This document shows, piece after piece, positions 1-11,157 of a DNA stretch of 64,000 nucleotides. The position numbers and the translations under genes are program-made. Each line of letters opens with the position of its first letter. The first letter of the stretch is position 1. The stretch comes from an uncultured Lachnospira sp. (lineage in GTDB: Bacteria > Bacillota > Clostridia > Lachnospirales > Lachnospiraceae): the NCBI GenBank assembly GCA_946186125.1, contig CAMHLZ010000012.1, positions 1 to 64,000 on the forward strand, read 5' to 3'. Below the pieces are notes generated by a model that had not been told where the DNA came from, did not search any database, and worked only from the letters and a program-made list of their open reading frames with translations.

Positions 1-2338
1 AAAATTAGTTGAAATCATGACCGAGCTTATATCAGTAATGAAAAAGATTACAACGAATCTGGAAGACAAGAAAAAGTTGCAAATTCAAGTCCAGTCGCTA
101 CAGGAAAAACTAAGGAAAGAGATTGGAAATTTATTTCCTAAAAAAGAATGGGAGTTATTGCAAGGAAAAAATGTTTTTAAAAAAAATGGTCCATTGAGTA
201 AAATTTGTATATCAGAAGAGGAATATAAAAGCATACAATGTTATGATGGGTTTATGACATTTTTTAAAAAATATAATGAAACAAGAGCAAATATATATAG
301 TACAGAAGAAAAAAGTACGGCAATTGCTTTTCGAATTGTGAATGATAATCTTCCAAAGTATGTGAGAAATAGTGATAATTTTCAGCAGATTTGTAAAGAA
401 ATTCCAGAAGTTGTAGAACAAGTAAAGAAAACGTATAATAATTTGACAAGTTATTTTGAAATTGATTGTTATCCAAGCCATTGGGGACAGAAGGGAATTG
501 AAAAATACAATTCTGTAATTGGTGAAATGAATAACCAACTAAACCTTGCGATACAAAAAAGAAAAGAATCAAAATTTAGAAAATATAAGATGCAGGTGTT
601 GTATCAACAAATTCTTAGTGATAGAGAAGAACAGTCTTTTGTGTATCAACAGGATCAGGAGGTTTTTCATGCAATAGATGAACTTTCAGAAGTTGTTGAA
701 AGTAGTGAGTTAAACGAGGCAATTAAATTGTTGAACTCTCATAACATTAACGAAACTGAAATATTTATTCCATATGCAAAATTAGCTGAAGTATCTGTGA
801 AAATGAAAATGGGGTGGAATGGATTAGAGCAGGCATTTATAAATGATTTGCAACAACAGTATCCAAAGAAAGACTATGAAAAATTGGTAGAACAATTAAA
901 AAAAGAGAAAAAAGTTTTTTCATTGCAAGAAATAAAAGAGACTGTTATGACTATTAAACATGAAGAAGATTGGCAGTTTGTCAGTTTATTAGATTGTATT
1001 GAAAGTTATCAAAAACAATTGAAAGAAACAAAAGATGCATATATAGAATATGCAAAAACATACGCAGATTCAAGCAGTTCATCCTTACAAGGAAATGATG
1101 TAGCACCGATAAAAGCATTCTTAGATAGTTGTCTGCAATTGGTACAATGGTGTAAACTGTTTGAATATTCTGATTTGTATGGTAATAGAGATAAAGTTTT
1201 TTATGGAGGAGCAGACACAATCTTACTTATATTCGAGTCACTAAATTCTGTATATAATAAAACGAGAAACTATGTGACTATGCGACCGGGACAAGCTAGA
1301 AAGATGCATTTAATGTTTGATTATCCGGAATTTGGTGGTGGTTTTAGCAATAGTAAAGTGGACTCTTATGGTACAATTTTGCTTCGTGATGAAAAAAATT
1401 ATTATTTAGCAGTTATAAAAAAAGGGATAAAATTATCATTGGAAGATATTACAAATGAAAATGATTGTTATGAACGTTTAAGTTATAGGTTGTTTCCTGA
1501 TGTAAAAAAAATGATACCGAAATGTTCTATTAGCATGAAAGAAGTTAACTCTCATTTTGAGAAATCAAATGATAATTATAAGATTATGAACGAAAAATAT
1601 GCAAAAGAATTACTTGTGGAAAAAGAAGATTATGAACTTTACTTTGTAAATCTTTATGATGATAAGAAGAAGTTTCAAAAAGATTATTTGAAAAAAACCG
1701 GAGACGAAAAAGGGTATAGAAAAGCATTAGAACGCTGGATTCGTTTTTGTATTCGATTTTTACAAGCCTATAAAAGCACAAAGGATTATGATCTTAGTGA
1801 ACTGGAGCCAATTTCTAAGTTTCGTTCCTTAGATGAATTTTACGATAAATTGAATACTTTATTATACAAAATAGAGTGGAAAAATATATCAAGAAAACAA
1901 ATTAAGCAGGAGTCATCTGGTCAGTTGTATTTATTTGAATTATATAACAAAGATTTTTCAGAACATGCAAAAGGTAAGAAAAATCTATTTACATTGTATT
2001 GGGAACAAATTTTTAGGGTGGAAAATTTAAAGAATCCTGTAATTAAATTATCTGGTGGTGCGGAGATGTTCTATCGTAAGGGTGCCATTCAAAAGCCATA
2101 TGTACATAAAAAAGGTTCCATGTTGGTGGATAAAACTTTTATTGATAAGAACGGAGTAAGAAAAACACTTCCAGATAATGTTTATAAAGAGTGGTCAGAT
2201 TTTATGAATAAAAAGATAAAATCTGTCAGCCAGGAGGCAAGTAAATATAAAGATTTTGTCAATTGTCATGAAGCGAAATATGATGTTACAAAAGATATAC
2301 AACAGCTCAATTTGAATTTCATGTTCCTATTACTTTGA
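1..2338 (+). CDS. cas12a: Cas12a (Cpf1), N-terminal/REC-WED-PI portion; 5' end beyond window; terminated early by frameshift
   Basis: Frame is open from position 2 through the annotated ATG at 17. Contains LRKEIGNLF, STEEKSTAIAFRIVNDNLPKY, LSGGAEMFYRKGAIQKPYVHKKGSMLVDK and KYDVTKD, which resemble LbCas12a. Followed by cas4-cas1-cas2 and a type V-A array. Confidence 0.95.
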   Translation, partial: KLVEIMTELISVMKKITTNLEDKKKLQIQVQSLQEKLRKEIGNLFPKKEWELLQGKNVFKKNGPLSKICISEEEYKSIQCYDGFMTFFKKYNETRANIYSTEEKSTAIAFRIVNDNLPKYVRNSDNFQQICKEIPEVVEQVKKTYNNLTSYFEIDCYPSHWGQKGIEKYNSVIGEMNNQLNLAIQKRKESKFRKYKMQVLYQQILSDREEQSFVYQQDQEVFHAIDELSEVVESSELNEAIKLLNSHNINETEIFIPYAKLAEVSVKMKMGWNGLEQAFINDLQQQYPKKDYEKLVEQLKKEKKVFSLQEIKETVMTIKHEEDWQFVSLLDCIESYQKQLKETKDAYIEYAKTYADSSSSSLQGNDVAPIKAFLDSCLQLVQWCKLFEYSDLYGNRDKVFYGGADTILLIFESLNSVYNKTRNYVTMRPGQARKMHLMFDYPEFGGGFSNSKVDSYGTILLRDEKNYYLAVIKKGIKLSLEDITNENDCYERLSYRLFPDVKKMIPKCSISMKEVNSHFEKSNDNYKIMNEKYAKELLVEKEDYELYFVNLYDDKKKFQKDYLKKTGDEKGYRKALERWIRFCIRFLQAYKSTKDYDLSELEPISKFRSLDEFYDKLNTLLYKIEWKNISRKQIKQESSGQLYLFELYNKDFSEHAKGKKNLFTLYWEQIFRVENLKNPVIKLSGGAEMFYRKGAIQKPYVHKKGSMLVDKTFIDKNGVRKTLPDNVYKEWSDFMNKKIKSVSQEASKYKDFVNCHEAKYDVTKDIQQLNLNFMFLLL

Positions 2339-3612
2339 ATTATTCAGCATTAGGAAAAGGACAAATAAATGATGGTGTATTAGATTGTCTATCTCAGAAA
2401 GAAAAATACAATGTAATTGGAATTGATCGTGGTGAAAGGAATTTGCTTGCATACTGTGTGGTAAATCAAGATGGTCATATTTTAGAACAAGGAACATTTA
2501 ATACAATTGTAGGTGGAAATAATCAAGAAGTAGATTATAAACAGAAGTTACAGGAAAAAGAAGTTAATCGACAAGAAGCCAGAAAAGAATGGAAAAACAT
2601 CGGAAAAATTAAAGAATTAAAGAGTGGTTATTTATCTCAAGTTATCTATCAATTAACTCAAATGATGGTAAAATATGATGCTATTGTCGTTATGGAAGAT
2701 TTAAATGTTGGATTCAAACGTGGTCGATTTAAAGTTGAACGACAGGTTTATCAAAAATTCGAAAAAGCACTTATTGATAAATTAAATTATTTAGTAACCA
2801 CAAAAGATGAAAATCAACATGGTATAGCAGGTAGCGTTAGTAATGCATATCAATTGACTGAAAAATTCAAATCATTTAAAGATATGGGAAAACAAAATGG
2901 AGTGTTATTTTACGTGCCTGCAGGTTATACCTCGAAAATTGATCCAACTACCGGATTTGTAGATGTTTTGAATCGAACAGGATTAACAAATACTACTGCA
3001 AGAAAAGAGTTCTTTGCAGCCTTTGATGATATTTTCTATTCTAAAGAAGATGAAATGTTCGCATTTTCTTTTGATTATAGTAGGTTTAAAGTGTTTCAGG
3101 AAATGCATAGAAAAAAATGGACAGTTTACACGAATGGTATTAAATACATATATTCATCTAAGCAAAGAAAAGAAATTTTAATAGATGTTACAAGAATGAT
3201 GAAGGAAGTATTAGAAAAGGCTGGTATAACAAACTACGATAATCTATATCGTCAAATATTGAATATTGAAGCAGATAAAACGCATGCTGAATTTTGGAAA
3301 TCGTTACAATATGTATTTGAAAGAACCATGCAATTAAGAAGTAGTCAAACTGATAATGGAGAGTCAAATTTGGAAGACAAGATAATATCACCGGTTAAAA
3401 ATGTTGATGGAGTGTTTTATGAGTCAAATGGAGATTATCATGATCTTACAAATCCGGCAGATGCTGATACAAACGGAGCCTTTCATATTGCAAAAAAAGG
3501 ATTGCTTCTTGTTGAAAATGTAAAGAAGACAGGTAGAGGAGCAAATGGAAAATGGCATCCTAAAACGAAAAACATTTCTAATAAGGATTGGTTTGCATTT
3601 GTTCAAAAATAA
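2335..3612 (+). CDS. cas12a: Cas12a C-terminal RuvC/Nuc portion, separated from the N-terminal ORF by a frameshift (homologous frame extends upstream to about 2290)
   Basis: RuvC-I VIGIDRGERNLLAY, RuvC-II VVMEDLNVGFKRGR and RuvC-III DADTNGAFHIAKKG all present. FEFHVPITLNYSA is encoded in this frame just upstream of the nominal TTG start. Confidence 0.95.
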   Translation: MNYSALGKGQINDGVLDCLSQKEKYNVIGIDRGERNLLAYCVVNQDGHILEQGTFNTIVGGNNQEVDYKQKLQEKEVNRQEARKEWKNIGKIKELKSGYLSQVIYQLTQMMVKYDAIVVMEDLNVGFKRGRFKVERQVYQKFEKALIDKLNYLVTTKDENQHGIAGSVSNAYQLTEKFKSFKDMGKQNGVLFYVPAGYTSKIDPTTGFVDVLNRTGLTNTTARKEFFAAFDDIFYSKEDEMFAFSFDYSRFKVFQEMHRKKWTVYTNGIKYIYSSKQRKEILIDVTRMMKEVLEKAGITNYDNLYRQILNIEADKTHAEFWKSLQYVFERTMQLRSSQTDNGESNLEDKIISPVKNVDGVFYESNGDYHDLTNPADADTNGAFHIAKKGLLLVENVKKTGRGANGKWHPKTKNISNKDWFAFVQK

Positions 3613-3623
3613 GAGGTGATTTT

Positions 3624-4181
3624 TTGCAAGGTGAAATATTAATTACACAATTAAATGATTTCATTTTTTGTCCGGCATCTATCTATTTTCACAATTTATA
3701 CGGCAATACAGACAGAATGCTGTTTCAATCAAAAAAGCAAATTAATGGAACAGCTGCTCATGAAAAAGTAGATAATAATACTTATAGCAGTAAAAAATGT
3801 ATTCTGTCTGCAATTGATGTATATTGTGAAAAATATGGATTATCTGGGAAAATTGATTTATACAATGTTGACACTGGCGTATTAACAGAAAGAAAACGAA
3901 CTATTAAAACAATTTATGACGGATATATTTTTCAAGTATACGCACAGTATTTTGCATTGATAGAATTAGGATATCATGTAAAAAAAATAAATTTGTATAG
4001 TATGACTGACAATAAAAAATATAACATAAAACTACCGGGTGACGATGAAGAGATGTTAAACAAATTTGAACAAACCATTCAGGATATGAGGAGCTTTCGC
4101 TTAGAACAATTTGAGCAAAGTAATCCTTTGAAATGTAAGAATTGCATCTATGAACCTGCTTGCGATAGGGGGATAAAATAA
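3624..4181 (+). CDS. cas4: CRISPR-associated exonuclease Cas4
   Basis: FCPASIYFH, GKIDLYN...LTERKRT and C-terminal CKNCIYEPAC cysteine cluster. TTG start at 3624 preceded by AGAGGTGAT; the listed ATG at 3588 lies inside cas12a. Confidence 0.9.
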   Translation: MQGEILITQLNDFIFCPASIYFHNLYGNTDRMLFQSKKQINGTAAHEKVDNNTYSSKKCILSAIDVYCEKYGLSGKIDLYNVDTGVLTERKRTIKTIYDGYIFQVYAQYFALIELGYHVKKINLYSMTDNKKYNIKLPGDDEEMLNKFEQTIQDMRSFRLEQFEQSNPLKCKNCIYEPACDRGIK

Positions 4182-5156
4182 ATGTTAGAAAGAACAGATT
4201 TTAATAAAAAACAATTAGTCTTCTTATTTACACTACAAGGTGAAAAGTTAGCATTTAAAAATGATAATCTGGTAGTGTTGGATAGTGAAGGTAAAATAAA
4301 ATATCAGACAACCTGTTATCAGATTTTTATGATTTTTGTGGTGGGCGATTTATCAATTACAACAGGATTAATTCGAAGAGCGAGTAAGTTTCAGTTTACG
4401 ATTTGTTTATTTACTGCATCTTTTAAATTGTATTCTATAATTGGTAATCGTATGGAGGGAAATACATTATTACATCGCAAACAGTATGCATATGAAGGTG
4501 ATGAAATAGCACAGTTTATTGTTTATAATAAAATCCGAAATCAACGTGAAACTCTTAACAAGATTCGAAAGAAAAGTAAGTTTTGTAAGGAAACAATAAA
4601 CATTTTGGATAGCTATTTGAAACAATTGAATGAAAATCAGTTACCAGCCGACTCTTTATTGGGAGTGGAAGGATCGGCTTCCAGAGTTTACTTTCCGGAG
4701 GTGTTTAGCAATGTTATGTGGAAAGGAAGAAAACCGAGAGTAAAAGCTGATTATGTTAATACGATTTTAGATATTGGTTATACATTACTTTTCAATTTTG
4801 TAGACTCTCTTCTACAGGTATTTGGATTTGATGTATACTGTGGCGTGTATCATAAAGAGTTTTATATGCGAAAATCTTTGGTTTGCGACATTATGGAACC
4901 TTTAAGACCAATTATTGATTGGAGAGTACGAACTGCAATTAATTTAGAACAGTTTCAAAAAGAAGATTTTCAAATTATTCAAAACCAGTATTGCTTGAAT
5001 TATAAAAGCTCAGCTAAATATGTTACGGTTTTATTGGAAGAGATTTTACAACATAAAAATGAGATATTCATTTATGTGCGTGATTATTATAGGAATTTTA
5101 TGAAAGGAAGAGAAATTGAAAAATACAGATGTTTTGAATTGGGGGTGAAAGAGTGA
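4182..5156 (+). CDS. cas1: CRISPR-associated integrase Cas1 (type V-A)
   Basis: GVEGSASRVYF, GVYHKEFYMRKSLVCDIMEPLRPIID; catalytic E/H/D-type motifs present. Confidence 0.95.
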   Translation: MLERTDFNKKQLVFLFTLQGEKLAFKNDNLVVLDSEGKIKYQTTCYQIFMIFVVGDLSITTGLIRRASKFQFTICLFTASFKLYSIIGNRMEGNTLLHRKQYAYEGDEIAQFIVYNKIRNQRETLNKIRKKSKFCKETINILDSYLKQLNENQLPADSLLGVEGSASRVYFPEVFSNVMWKGRKPRVKADYVNTILDIGYTLLFNFVDSLLQVFGFDVYCGVYHKEFYMRKSLVCDIMEPLRPIIDWRVRTAINLEQFQKEDFQIIQNQYCLNYKSSAKYVTVLLEEILQHKNEIFIYVRDYYRNFMKGREIEKYRCFELGVKE

Positions 5157-5428
5157 TTATTATCAGTTATGATATTTCCGATGATAAACTTAGAACCAAG
5201 TTTTCTAAGTATTTAACACGATTTGGACATAGAATACAATATTCTGTATACGAAATTGATAATAGCGAACGAGTGTTGGAAAATATTAAGACAGATATAA
5301 CAAATAGGTTTGAAAAAAGGTTTACTCAGTCGGATAGTGTTTATATTTTTCAATTATCAGCAGCATGCAAGACAATACGGTATGGATATGCAAAAAATGA
5401 AGAAAAAGATTTTGTTGTTTTGAGTTAA
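5153..5428 (+). CDS. cas2: CRISPR-associated Cas2
   Basis: 91 aa, MIIISYDISDDKLRTKFSKYLTRFGHRIQYSVYEI; overlaps cas1 end by 4 nt. Confidence 0.95.
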   Translation: MIIISYDISDDKLRTKFSKYLTRFGHRIQYSVYEIDNSERVLENIKTDITNRFEKRFTQSDSVYIFQLSAACKTIRYGYAKNEEKDFVVLS

Positions 5429-5558: not shown

Positions 5559-7482
5559 GTTTGAAAGGCTATATAATTTCTACTTTGTGTAGATTCCATG
5601 GTCCTTGACATGCCGACCAAAGTTTGAAAGGCTATATAATTTCTACTTTGTGTAGATAATCACCACCTAGACCTAGTTTAATTAAAGTTTGAAAGGCTAT
5701 ATAATTTCTACTTTGTGTAGATTGATGTGTCTTTCAATAGATAAATCAGAGTTTGAAAGGCTATATAATTTCTACTTTGTGTAGATACTGACAGGAATCC
5801 ACTTCTGTGTAGGGTTTGAAAGGCTATATAATTTCTACTTTGTGTAGATATTTCTATCTCCTTTCCAACATCATTTGTTTGAAAGGCTATATAATTTCTA
5901 CTTTGTGTAGATAGGCAGACTTTTTGCGGACTTCTTGCGTTTGAAAGGCTATATAATTTCTACTTTGTGTAGATGCTACAGTTGCGTTATTTGTGCGTAA
6001 TTCAGTTTGAAAGGCTATATAATTTCTACTTTGTGTAGATAATAGTAACTCTAATCTGATTTGAACGTTTGAAAGGCTATATAATTTCTACTTTGTGTAG
6101 ATCAGAAGATGGTTGGTTTAGAGCGTCACAGTTTGAAAGGCTATATAATTTCTACTTTGTGTAGATAGTAATACGCCTACAATTCCAACCGTGTTTGAAA
6201 GGCTATATAATTTCTACTTTGTGTAGATGTCATCCCAAAAATTCCAAAAATTCCGTTTGAAAGGCTATATAATTTCTACTTTGTGTAGATGAAACATCAA
6301 CTTCTGTTTTAACAGGGTTTGAAAGGCTATATAATTTCTACTTTGTGTAGATCTATTGCAAGACATTACAATACCTTTAGTTTGAAAGGCTATATAATTT
6401 CTACTTTGTGTAGATTCATATTTTCTGTTTTTTTCCATGAATAGTTTGAAAGGCAATATAATTTCTACTTTGTGTAGATATTCATCTTGACAATCCTGAA
6501 AAGTATGTTTGAAAGGCTATATAATTTCTACTTTGTGTAGATACACTGAATTTGCGTACAACAGGGATAGTTTGAAAGGCTATATAATTTCTACTTTGTG
6601 TAGATCATGTAGTGGAACTACTAACGGATTCGTTTGAAAGGCTATATAATTTCTACTTTGTGTAGATTGCAATTGATACATTTGCGGACATGGTGTTTGA
6701 AAGGCTATATAATTTCTACTTTGTGTAGATATTATTGAGCCATTAACAGATATTAGAGTTTGAAAGGCTATATAATTTCTACTTTGTGTAGATTCCATTT
6801 TCGTAAGCTTCAACCGCTCGTTTGAAAGGCTATATAATTTCTACTTTGTGTAGATTACAGAGAGTTTATGTCGACTTATCCACGTTTGAAAGGCTATATA
6901 ATTTCTACTTTGTGTAGATAAGAAGTATTAGATATAACAAAAAAAGCGTTTGAAAAACTATAGAATTTCTACTTTGTGTAGATTATGGTACGACAGGAAT
7001 ATATATGCAGTTTGAAAAACTATAGAATTTCTACTTTGTGTAGATACGAGCTTGTAGGGGTATTTCTATGCCGTTTGAAAAACTATAGAATTTCTACTTT
7101 GTGTAGATAATTAATCATCTCCCTTCAATTTCAGTGTTTGAAAAACTATATAATTTCTACTTTGTGTAGATGTCCGTGTTATTGGGACTTTTAGTCCGTT
7201 TGAAAAACTATAGAATTTCTACTTTGTGTAGATTTTCAGTAATACTTTTTTATTTGGAAAGTTTGAAAAACTATAGAATTTCTACTTTGTGTAGATTAAT
7301 CAGGTCACATATAGCCTGGAATGTTTGAAAAACTATAGAATTTCTACTTTGTGTAGATTTTGTGAATTTGCCTAATCATATCAGGGTTTGAAAAACTATA
7401 GAATTTCTACTTTGTGTAGATACAGATGCGACGATATGAAAAATGCATTTGAAAGGCTATAGAATTTCTACTTTGTGTAGAT
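5559..7482 (+). CRISPR. Type V-A CRISPR array, 31 x 36-nt repeats, 30 spacers of 25-30 nt
   Basis: Counted by eye. Repeats 1-22 GTTTGAAAGGCTATATAATTTCTACTTTGTGTAGAT (repeat 15 has GGCAATATA). Repeats 23-30 GTTTGAAAAACTATAGAATTTCTACTTTGTGTAGAT (repeat 26 has CTATATAAT). Repeat 31 ATTTGAAAGGCTATAGAATTTCTACTTTGTGTAGAT. Invariant AATTTCTACTTTGTGTAGAT Cas12a handle. Confidence 0.99.
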
Positions 7483-7536: not shown

Positions 7537-7719
7537 ATGATACAATCAGTGAACGAAAACGAATTAGATTTACAATTAAAACAAAATGCTATTGAAAAGT
7601 ACGGTAATATTATACGTATAAAAAAATATGGTGCTGAAGAAATAGCATATCAAGAAAAAATAATTAAAGCTGAATTAAAAGCTTTGGATATTGATATGAA
7701 AGAATTGGAGGAATATTAA
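7537..7719 (+). CDS. Small hypothetical protein (GTG at 7549 fits the AAGGAG spacing better)
   Basis: 60 aa, coding-like composition; AAGGAG directly before 7537; next small ORF begins 1 nt after the stop. Confidence 0.55.
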   Translation: MIQSVNENELDLQLKQNAIEKYGNIIRIKKYGAEEIAYQEKIIKAELKALDIDMKELEEY

Positions 7720-7720
7720 A

Positions 7721-7876
7721 ATGGAAGAAAGCGGAATGACTGATTTACAATTTAAAGCATATACAAGACTAATTATAAAACTTTTAGAAAACGCAAAGAG
7801 TCAACCAACAAAGGAAGCTACCGATGAAAGTTTAGATGAATTAATAGCTGATTTCAAAGATGATCTTAGTTTCTAA
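7721..7876 (+). CDS. Small hypothetical protein, 51 aa (MEESGMTDLQFKAYTRLIIKLLENAKSQ...)
   Basis: Open frame immediately after 7537..7719 with GGAGGAA upstream. MTDLQFKxxxRLI-type small proteins are common on Firmicute accessory DNA (from memory). Confidence 0.6.
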   Translation: MEESGMTDLQFKAYTRLIIKLLENAKSQPTKEATDESLDELIADFKDDLSF

Positions 7877-9816: not shown

Positions 9817-9932
9817 TTGATGTGGAAACAGTTACGGTTGAGAATCATCCGGAACTGCCACTTAGCAAAAAATAAAGTAACAGGTAAGTATGTGCGTTGT
9901 ATTATTCATCGCTTACTTAAGAGGTGATAAGT

Positions 9933-10457
9933 ATGGATTTTATTACAGAATTAAAAAAACAAAATATGAGTATTAGAATTTGTTCTCAAAAAAGTGGAAT
10001 TCCTTATGCGACACTTTATCCAATAATAAAGGGAAAAGTAGACATTGGAACATGTGCATATTATACGGTTGAAAAACTAGCCAAAGCTTTAGGTTATCGC
10101 CCTGATCAAATAGTATACCATAAAGAAGACTTCCAAACTTTTAGAAATAATCTTCATCATCAAATTAAAAGAGATGAATTACAAACAGTACTTAGTATAA
10201 TTGAAAATGAAGATGTTGAGTATTATAGGTTCCATAGCGATTTTATTAAAATGATGTATCTTGTTGCAACAGTTGATTATATTAGTAAAAAATATGATAT
10301 TCCATTATGTGATAAATATAATGATATACGGCTACTAAAGCTAGAACAACCGTACTTTGTCGGAGATTCAGCATTAATAAAAAATGAAAGCAGGCAAGTT
10401 ATTAAAGAATTTTCTAAGTATAATATCATTGAAGGAGATTTATATGATGCTGTATGA
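9933..10457 (+). CDS. HTH antitoxin-like protein (XRE-type N-terminus)
   Basis: MDFITELKKQNMSIRICSQKSGIPYATLYPIIKGKVDIGTCAYYTVEKLAKALGY; overlaps the following NTase gene by 14 nt. Confidence 0.7.
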   Translation: MDFITELKKQNMSIRICSQKSGIPYATLYPIIKGKVDIGTCAYYTVEKLAKALGYRPDQIVYHKEDFQTFRNNLHHQIKRDELQTVLSIIENEDVEYYRFHSDFIKMMYLVATVDYISKKYDIPLCDKYNDIRLLKLEQPYFVGDSALIKNESRQVIKEFSKYNIIEGDLYDAV

Positions 10458-11157
10458 TAAAAAAATAACAAAAGAAAATGCATATTTTATTATTAATCAA
10501 TTCGCAAAAGAATACAGAAAAGAACTTGGGAAAATCCCTGGGGAAATAATAATTGTAGGTGGTGGTAGTATTATGTTAAATTATAAATTTAGAGATACTA
10601 CACAAGATTTTGATGTGATATTAAGAACTTCATCAGAAATTAAAGATGTTATCAAGAAATTTGCAGATAAATATGAATTACCAAGGGATTGGATGAATTC
10701 AGACTTCAAAAATACTATATCGTATTCTGATAGACTTTCTGAAGTATCAAAACATTATCGAACACTTAATAATGGAACACTTGAAATACGGACTGTTTCT
10801 GGTGTTTATTTAATAGCAATGAAGCTGAGAGCACATAGGGATTATAGAAATGATATTTCCGACGCAATAGGTATTTTGATTGAGGAAATGGAATCTGGAA
10901 ATTCAATTTCTTTTGAAGATATTCAAAATGCATATAAACGATTATATGATAATGATTTACCTTCAGGACTAATAGAAAGATTAAACATAATTTATAATAT
11001 GAATATCAATGAACTGAAATCCTATTATAAAAAGCAATTGTTATTAGAAAAAGAAATAGGTTCACGGGTTATTTCATATATCGACAATGGTGCACACATA
11101 AATACCCATAATGTCGATTATGTCATAAATAAAATTAAAGATAAAATGAAAAAGTAA
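10444..11157 (+). CDS. Nucleotidyltransferase-fold protein (AbiEii/DUF6036-like), putative toxin
   Basis: IIIVGGGSIMLNYKFRDTTQDFDVIL: GG/GS...DxD NTase motif. AAGGAG upstream of ATG 10444. Confidence 0.75.
   Translation: MMLYDKKITKENAYFIINQFAKEYRKELGKIPGEIIIVGGGSIMLNYKFRDTTQDFDVILRTSSEIKDVIKKFADKYELPRDWMNSDFKNTISYSDRLSEVSKHYRTLNNGTLEIRTVSGVYLIAMKLRAHRDYRNDISDAIGILIEEMESGNSISFEDIQNAYKRLYDNDLPSGLIERLNIIYNMNINELKSYYKKQLLLEKEIGSRVISYIDNGAHINTHNVDYVINKIKDKMKK

Follow-up and report, generated by a model that had tools for sequence, protein, structure and literature searches.

The cas12a gene of the type V-A CRISPR locus described here, from a Lachnospiraceae bacterium, is broken by a frameshift, and we consider it quite probable that this is a real and recent loss of Cas12a, in which a gene that was previously normal lost 7 nt through a deletion between short direct repeats. 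The event is of an ordinary kind, a small deletion that removes a CRISPR effector, and is one more routine case of a costly immune gene being lost. The locus lies at the start of the window, the stretch of 64,000 nt that was analysed, which corresponds to bases 1-64000 of contig C12 in a draft genome of 3.39 Mb and 111 contigs.

No uninterrupted reading frame for cas12a is present, the frame shifting at about 2293. Two open reading frames, ORF1 (17-2338) and ORF2 (2335-3612), are pieces of the one gene. Against the Cas12a model TIGR04330 (cutoff 300 bits) the N-terminal part scores 348 bits over model positions 76-860, and the C-terminal part 456 bits over positions 872-1286. The two parts match successive stretches of the model, and are therefore a single gene in two frames, with an offset of -1 between them. 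Domain matches (PF18501, PF21918, PF18516 and PF18510) place REC1 and REC2 in ORF1, and RuvC and NUC in ORF2. The C-terminal end of ORF1 reads KYDVTKDIQQLNLNFMFLLL up to its stop. From 2293 the RuvC frame picks up again, reading RYTTAQFEFHVPITLNYSALGKG. An earlier note on this DNA had claimed the frameshift and given both readings, and was correct in this, as judged by the ORF coordinates, the two-part match to TIGR04330 and the alignment across the junction. It had also held the RuvC motifs to be intact; the catalytic sequences IDRGER, EDLN and DADTNGA are indeed all seen in the alignment of the C-terminal part. The features of the locus are collected in Table 1.

Table 1. Features of the type V-A locus, in window coordinates.
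Feature	Position	Strand	Basis
N-terminal part of cas12a, as far as the lesion (REC1, REC2, WED/PI)	1..2296	+	domain and model matches; first 227 nt of the gene on C23
Lone AAAAGAT within the K-D-x-R-[FY] motif (WED domain), where the 7-nt deletion lies	2290..2296	+	sequence, homologue alignment
Out-of-frame tail of ORF1, 13 codons, TGA at 2336-2338	2297..2338	+	ORF reading
cas12a C-terminal part, -1 frame (rest of WED, RuvC, NUC)	2293..3612	+	model, domains, alignment
cas4 (type V)	3624..4181	+	TIGR04328
cas1 (type V)	4182..5156	+	TIGR04329
cas2	5153..5428	+	model match
CRISPR array with 31 36-nt repeats and 30 spacers (25-30 nt)	5559..7482	+	repeat analysis

The first base of the window is also the end of its contig, which falls inside cas12a. 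The apparent start of ORF1 at position 17 is an artefact of this contig end, the true ATG being located on contig C23. Using the N-terminus of a relative as the query, we found the missing start of the gene at the end of C23 (L114:14539-14820), where it begins MERMYENFTNLYPVTKTLSFKAIP. The two contigs overlap by exactly 55 nt (window 1-55, L114:14766-14820), and this 55-mer occurs nowhere else, even when three mismatches are allowed. The exact overlap suggests an edge of a de Bruijn graph with k = 55, i.e., a short-read assembly, and the sharing of the gene between two contigs points to a branch within it that the assembly graph left unresolved. The N-terminus on C23 is intact, ruling out a further lesion where the contig breaks off, and no insertion element was seen at the C23/C12 end. 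Directly upstream of cas12a on C23, and on the same strand, lies a gene for a WYL/WCX-domain transcription regulator (L114:13431-14435).

The lesion falls in the most conserved crRNA processing motif of the protein, the five-residue K-D-x-R-[FY] of the WED domain, which is incomplete, being broken off after K-D. We take the first lysine of the motif to be the equivalent of FnCas12a K869 (AsCas12a K860, LbCas12a K785). In pre-crRNA processing FnCas12a uses K869 as the base (PMC11127173), and LbCas12a K785 is located at the REC2-WED interface (PMC6711708).

The sequence AAAAGAT is found once at this site (2290-2296), and a doubled AAAAGAT is absent from the whole window. If a single residue of unknown identity is inserted between TKD and RYT, to give TKD-x-RYTTAQFEFHVPITLNY, the junction fits without gaps to 7/7 of the Lachnospiraceae-family proteins aligned. 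The motif has a constant length of five residues in 87/87 homologous genes, drawn from the family of the host together with 80 loci of the GTDB contig collection; it takes the form KDxRY in 53, KDxRF in 24 and same-length variants in ten. Losses of 1 nt or 4 nt would shorten a motif of such fixed length by two residues or one, respectively, and were rejected. Only 7 nt restores the five residues, making this the best-supported size, and the comparison supports well the reading of the lesion as a 7-nt loss, as the earlier note had proposed.

That note went further, identifying the lost nucleotides as a second copy of AAAAGAT. Here the size stands, and the exact letters are a plausible reconstruction. 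Since several codon choices are compatible with a clean 7-nt deletion at this point, a tandem heptamer cannot be read from the surviving sequence. We have estimated its probability using the codons of cas12a-cas4-cas1-cas2 and the frequencies of K and R at position x of the motif. From codon usage alone, before any weighting for homology, the probability of a perfect tandem is 0.145, and that of microhomology of at least 4 nt is 0.52. If each extra nucleotide of homology is assumed to raise slippage by 1.5-3 fold the former becomes 0.50-0.90, and with assumed weights in which slippage favours longer repeats the latter becomes 0.86-0.99. An ancestral tandem AAAAGAT is plausible on this basis. 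Under slippage the allele before deletion may have carried AAAAGATAAAAGAT at the site, and the 7-nt deletion most probably arose during replication, between short direct repeats 7 nt apart in the K-D-x-R-[FY] codons. Slippage between tandem or near-tandem heptamers would be the source of the lesion.

A perfect tandem heptamer exists in a distant homologue from a clostridial MAG (L071), an intact cas12a that reads AAAGATAAAAGATA at the site (codons AAA GAT AAA AGA TAT). More generally, an exact match of at least 4 nt at an offset of 7 nt occurs in the K-D-[KR]-R-[FY] codons of 19/83 distinct homologues, against a background of 4.6% for codon windows taken at random from these genes. The nominal significance of this enrichment (p ~6e-9) is overstated, since the homologues are related. 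As a modest general feature, the stretch that encodes the processing motif is prone to forming repeats. We give little credence to the broader proposition that these codons make AT-rich cas12a genes so prone to 7-nt slippage as to form a built-in weak point, through which Cas12a immunity is recurrently lost and on/off variants possibly arise in natural populations.

Apart from this lesion, the 3,840 nt (3.84 kb) of coding sequence, including the N-terminus on C23, are free of stops and shifts. Given that 6.5% of substitutions would create a stop, this corresponds to fewer than about 46 neutral substitutions, or 1.2% of sites, at 95% since the gene ceased to be under constraint. With no second lesion in the rest of the gene, the frameshift must be recent, or else absent from the living strain. 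It looks recent, and the earlier note's suggestion of a recent event is supported. Breakage of cas12a is otherwise seen in 4 of about 79 homologues in which the gene is uncut by a contig end (~5%, a rough rate because some of the 79 loci duplicate one genome). These come from public MAGs and genomes, and comprise two frameshifts (L032 and L094), a stop (L083) and a truncation (L067); none of the 79 whole genes is broken at the K-D-x-R-[FY] site. We found no papers on natural cas12a frameshifts among open papers.

In the collections searched we came across no intact sister allele of this cas12a, and no relative whose protein identity exceeded about 50% over the C-terminal half. None of four other genomes of the genus contains cas12a. 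Samples of the family, the order and the 'relatives' set gave at best ≤49% identity over the full C-terminal part, along with a single partial match of about 250 residues at 53%, and the best of 226 homologues in the genome contig collection reached 49%. A search with a single protein returned no close relative, and phage and plasmid records yielded none and one distant relative, respectively.

The alternative that survives best is that of a sequencing or assembly error, the cas12a of the strain itself being intact, a possible cause already named in the earlier note. The genome is a 111-contig draft, and the contig ends within cas12a with its exact 55-nt overlap to C23, so that the graph was probably branched there. 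However, a 7-nt deletion is untypical of short-read or homopolymer errors, and the break lies about 2.3 kb from the lesion. Moreover the 55-nt overlap greatly exceeds the length of a 14-nt repeat, making collapse of such a repeat in assembly unlikely, and we regard error as an unlikely origin of the frameshift.

It is very unlikely that we have sampled a mixed population undergoing reversible slippage, with one versus two heptamers acting as an on/off switch for Cas12a. The excess of 7-nt-offset repeats in the motif over the rest of the gene would suit such a switch, but the one remaining copy would be hard to revert by slippage, two copies are far below the usual phase-variable tracts, and breakage at this site is found in 0/79 whole homologous genes. 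A naturally split Cas12a, in which ORF2 is reinitiated at the TTG at 2335 and the two parts assemble, seems more improbable still. This TTG overlaps the stop of ORF1 (TTGA, 2335-2338) in the geometry of coupled genes, but 2335 is preceded by no visible ribosome-binding site, about 15 WED residues following K-D are missing from both parts, and the TTG simply encodes the leucine in the conserved PITLN. Programmed or leaky -1 ribosomal frameshifting at ACA AAA GAT, giving a full-length protein, is scarcely credible despite the run of four A at the site, for the product would read K-R-Y, two residues short in a motif of invariant length, there is no standard slippery heptamer, the downstream RNA structure is no stronger than that of shuffled sequences (z 0.60), and no homologue is frameshifted here.

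On our preferred reading of a recent 7-nt deletion, the frame would be lost after residue 841, to be followed by 13 foreign residues and a stop, and the RuvC/NUC nuclease part would not be made in frame. We would expect no functional Cas12a to be made, leaving cas4-cas1-cas2 and the array without an effector, and judging from the sequence the deletion has probably switched off the type V-A immune system. In searches of the genome outside the array, 0/30 spacers matched above background (best hit E 0.05); there is no self-targeting spacer, and so no independent sign that immunity is off. Spacer matches in phage records were at chance level only.

The rest of the locus is in good order, as the earlier note had maintained. 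The products of cas4, cas1 and cas2 each match their models, and 31/31 repeats end in AATTTCTACTTTGTGTAGAT, so that every 3′ crRNA handle is intact. Repeats 1-22 begin GTTTGAAAGGCTATATAATTTC, one of them with a single change, and repeats 23-30 mostly begin GTTTGAAAAACTATAGAATTTC. The trailer-end repeats (6948-7482) depart from the 22 at the leader end by several differences in the 5′ half, GGCTATAT to AACTATAG, and the array thus holds two repeat generations. Immediately after the array are two small ORFs of 60 and 51 aa (window 7537-7876), the first of which matches a CARF-associated HTH model weakly and below the cutoff. An IS66 transposase remnant (PF03050; 9322-9816) lies about 1.8 kb past the array, followed at 9924-11157 by an HTH protein and then a DUF6036 nucleotidyltransferase, which may form a toxin-antitoxin-like pair.

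The strain is probably not devoid of CRISPR immunity, since contig C8 carries a complete-looking type III-A locus (L120 = C8:40500-60400) with cas6, cas10, csm2-csm5, cas1, cas2 and csm6, and at least 21 repeats. In its array one repeat-spacer unit occurs twice in a row (L120 8130-8269). Three tandem units of 53 nt are present at L120:14517-14675, each starting TACGTAT with the inverted ATACGTA further on.

We therefore have a natural and apparently fresh knock-out of Cas12a, in which the adaptation genes and a memory of 30 spacers are still there. The locus should help in studying the persistence of such loci over time, and whether adaptation goes on without an effector. That 7-nt-offset repeats are enriched in the codons for crRNA processing provides a small, testable prediction of where cas12a genes break.

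The lesion may be compared with three sets of known systems. The broken homologues L032, L067, L083 and L094 similarly have a cas12a that can still be recognised but carries a frameshift, truncation or stop; none is disrupted at the K-D-x-R-[FY] motif. In type III-A escapers of Staphylococcus epidermidis, interference is abolished by cas genes acquiring small frameshift deletions, which in the laboratory are an established way of losing CRISPR (PMC3784566). These resemble the present case in the nature of the change, a small frameshift deletion in a cas gene, but they arose by laboratory selection with the loss of single adenines, whereas here 7 nt have been lost from cas12a in nature. Lastly, the locus is like other type V-A (Cas12a/Cpf1) systems in its order cas12a-cas4-cas1-cas2-array, in its matches to TIGR04330, TIGR04328 and TIGR04329, in the canonical AATTTCTAC...GTAGAT handle and in its RuvC motifs. 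It differs from them in a C-terminal part that is at most about 49% identical over its full length to any homologue found, and in the frameshift that interrupts its effector gene.
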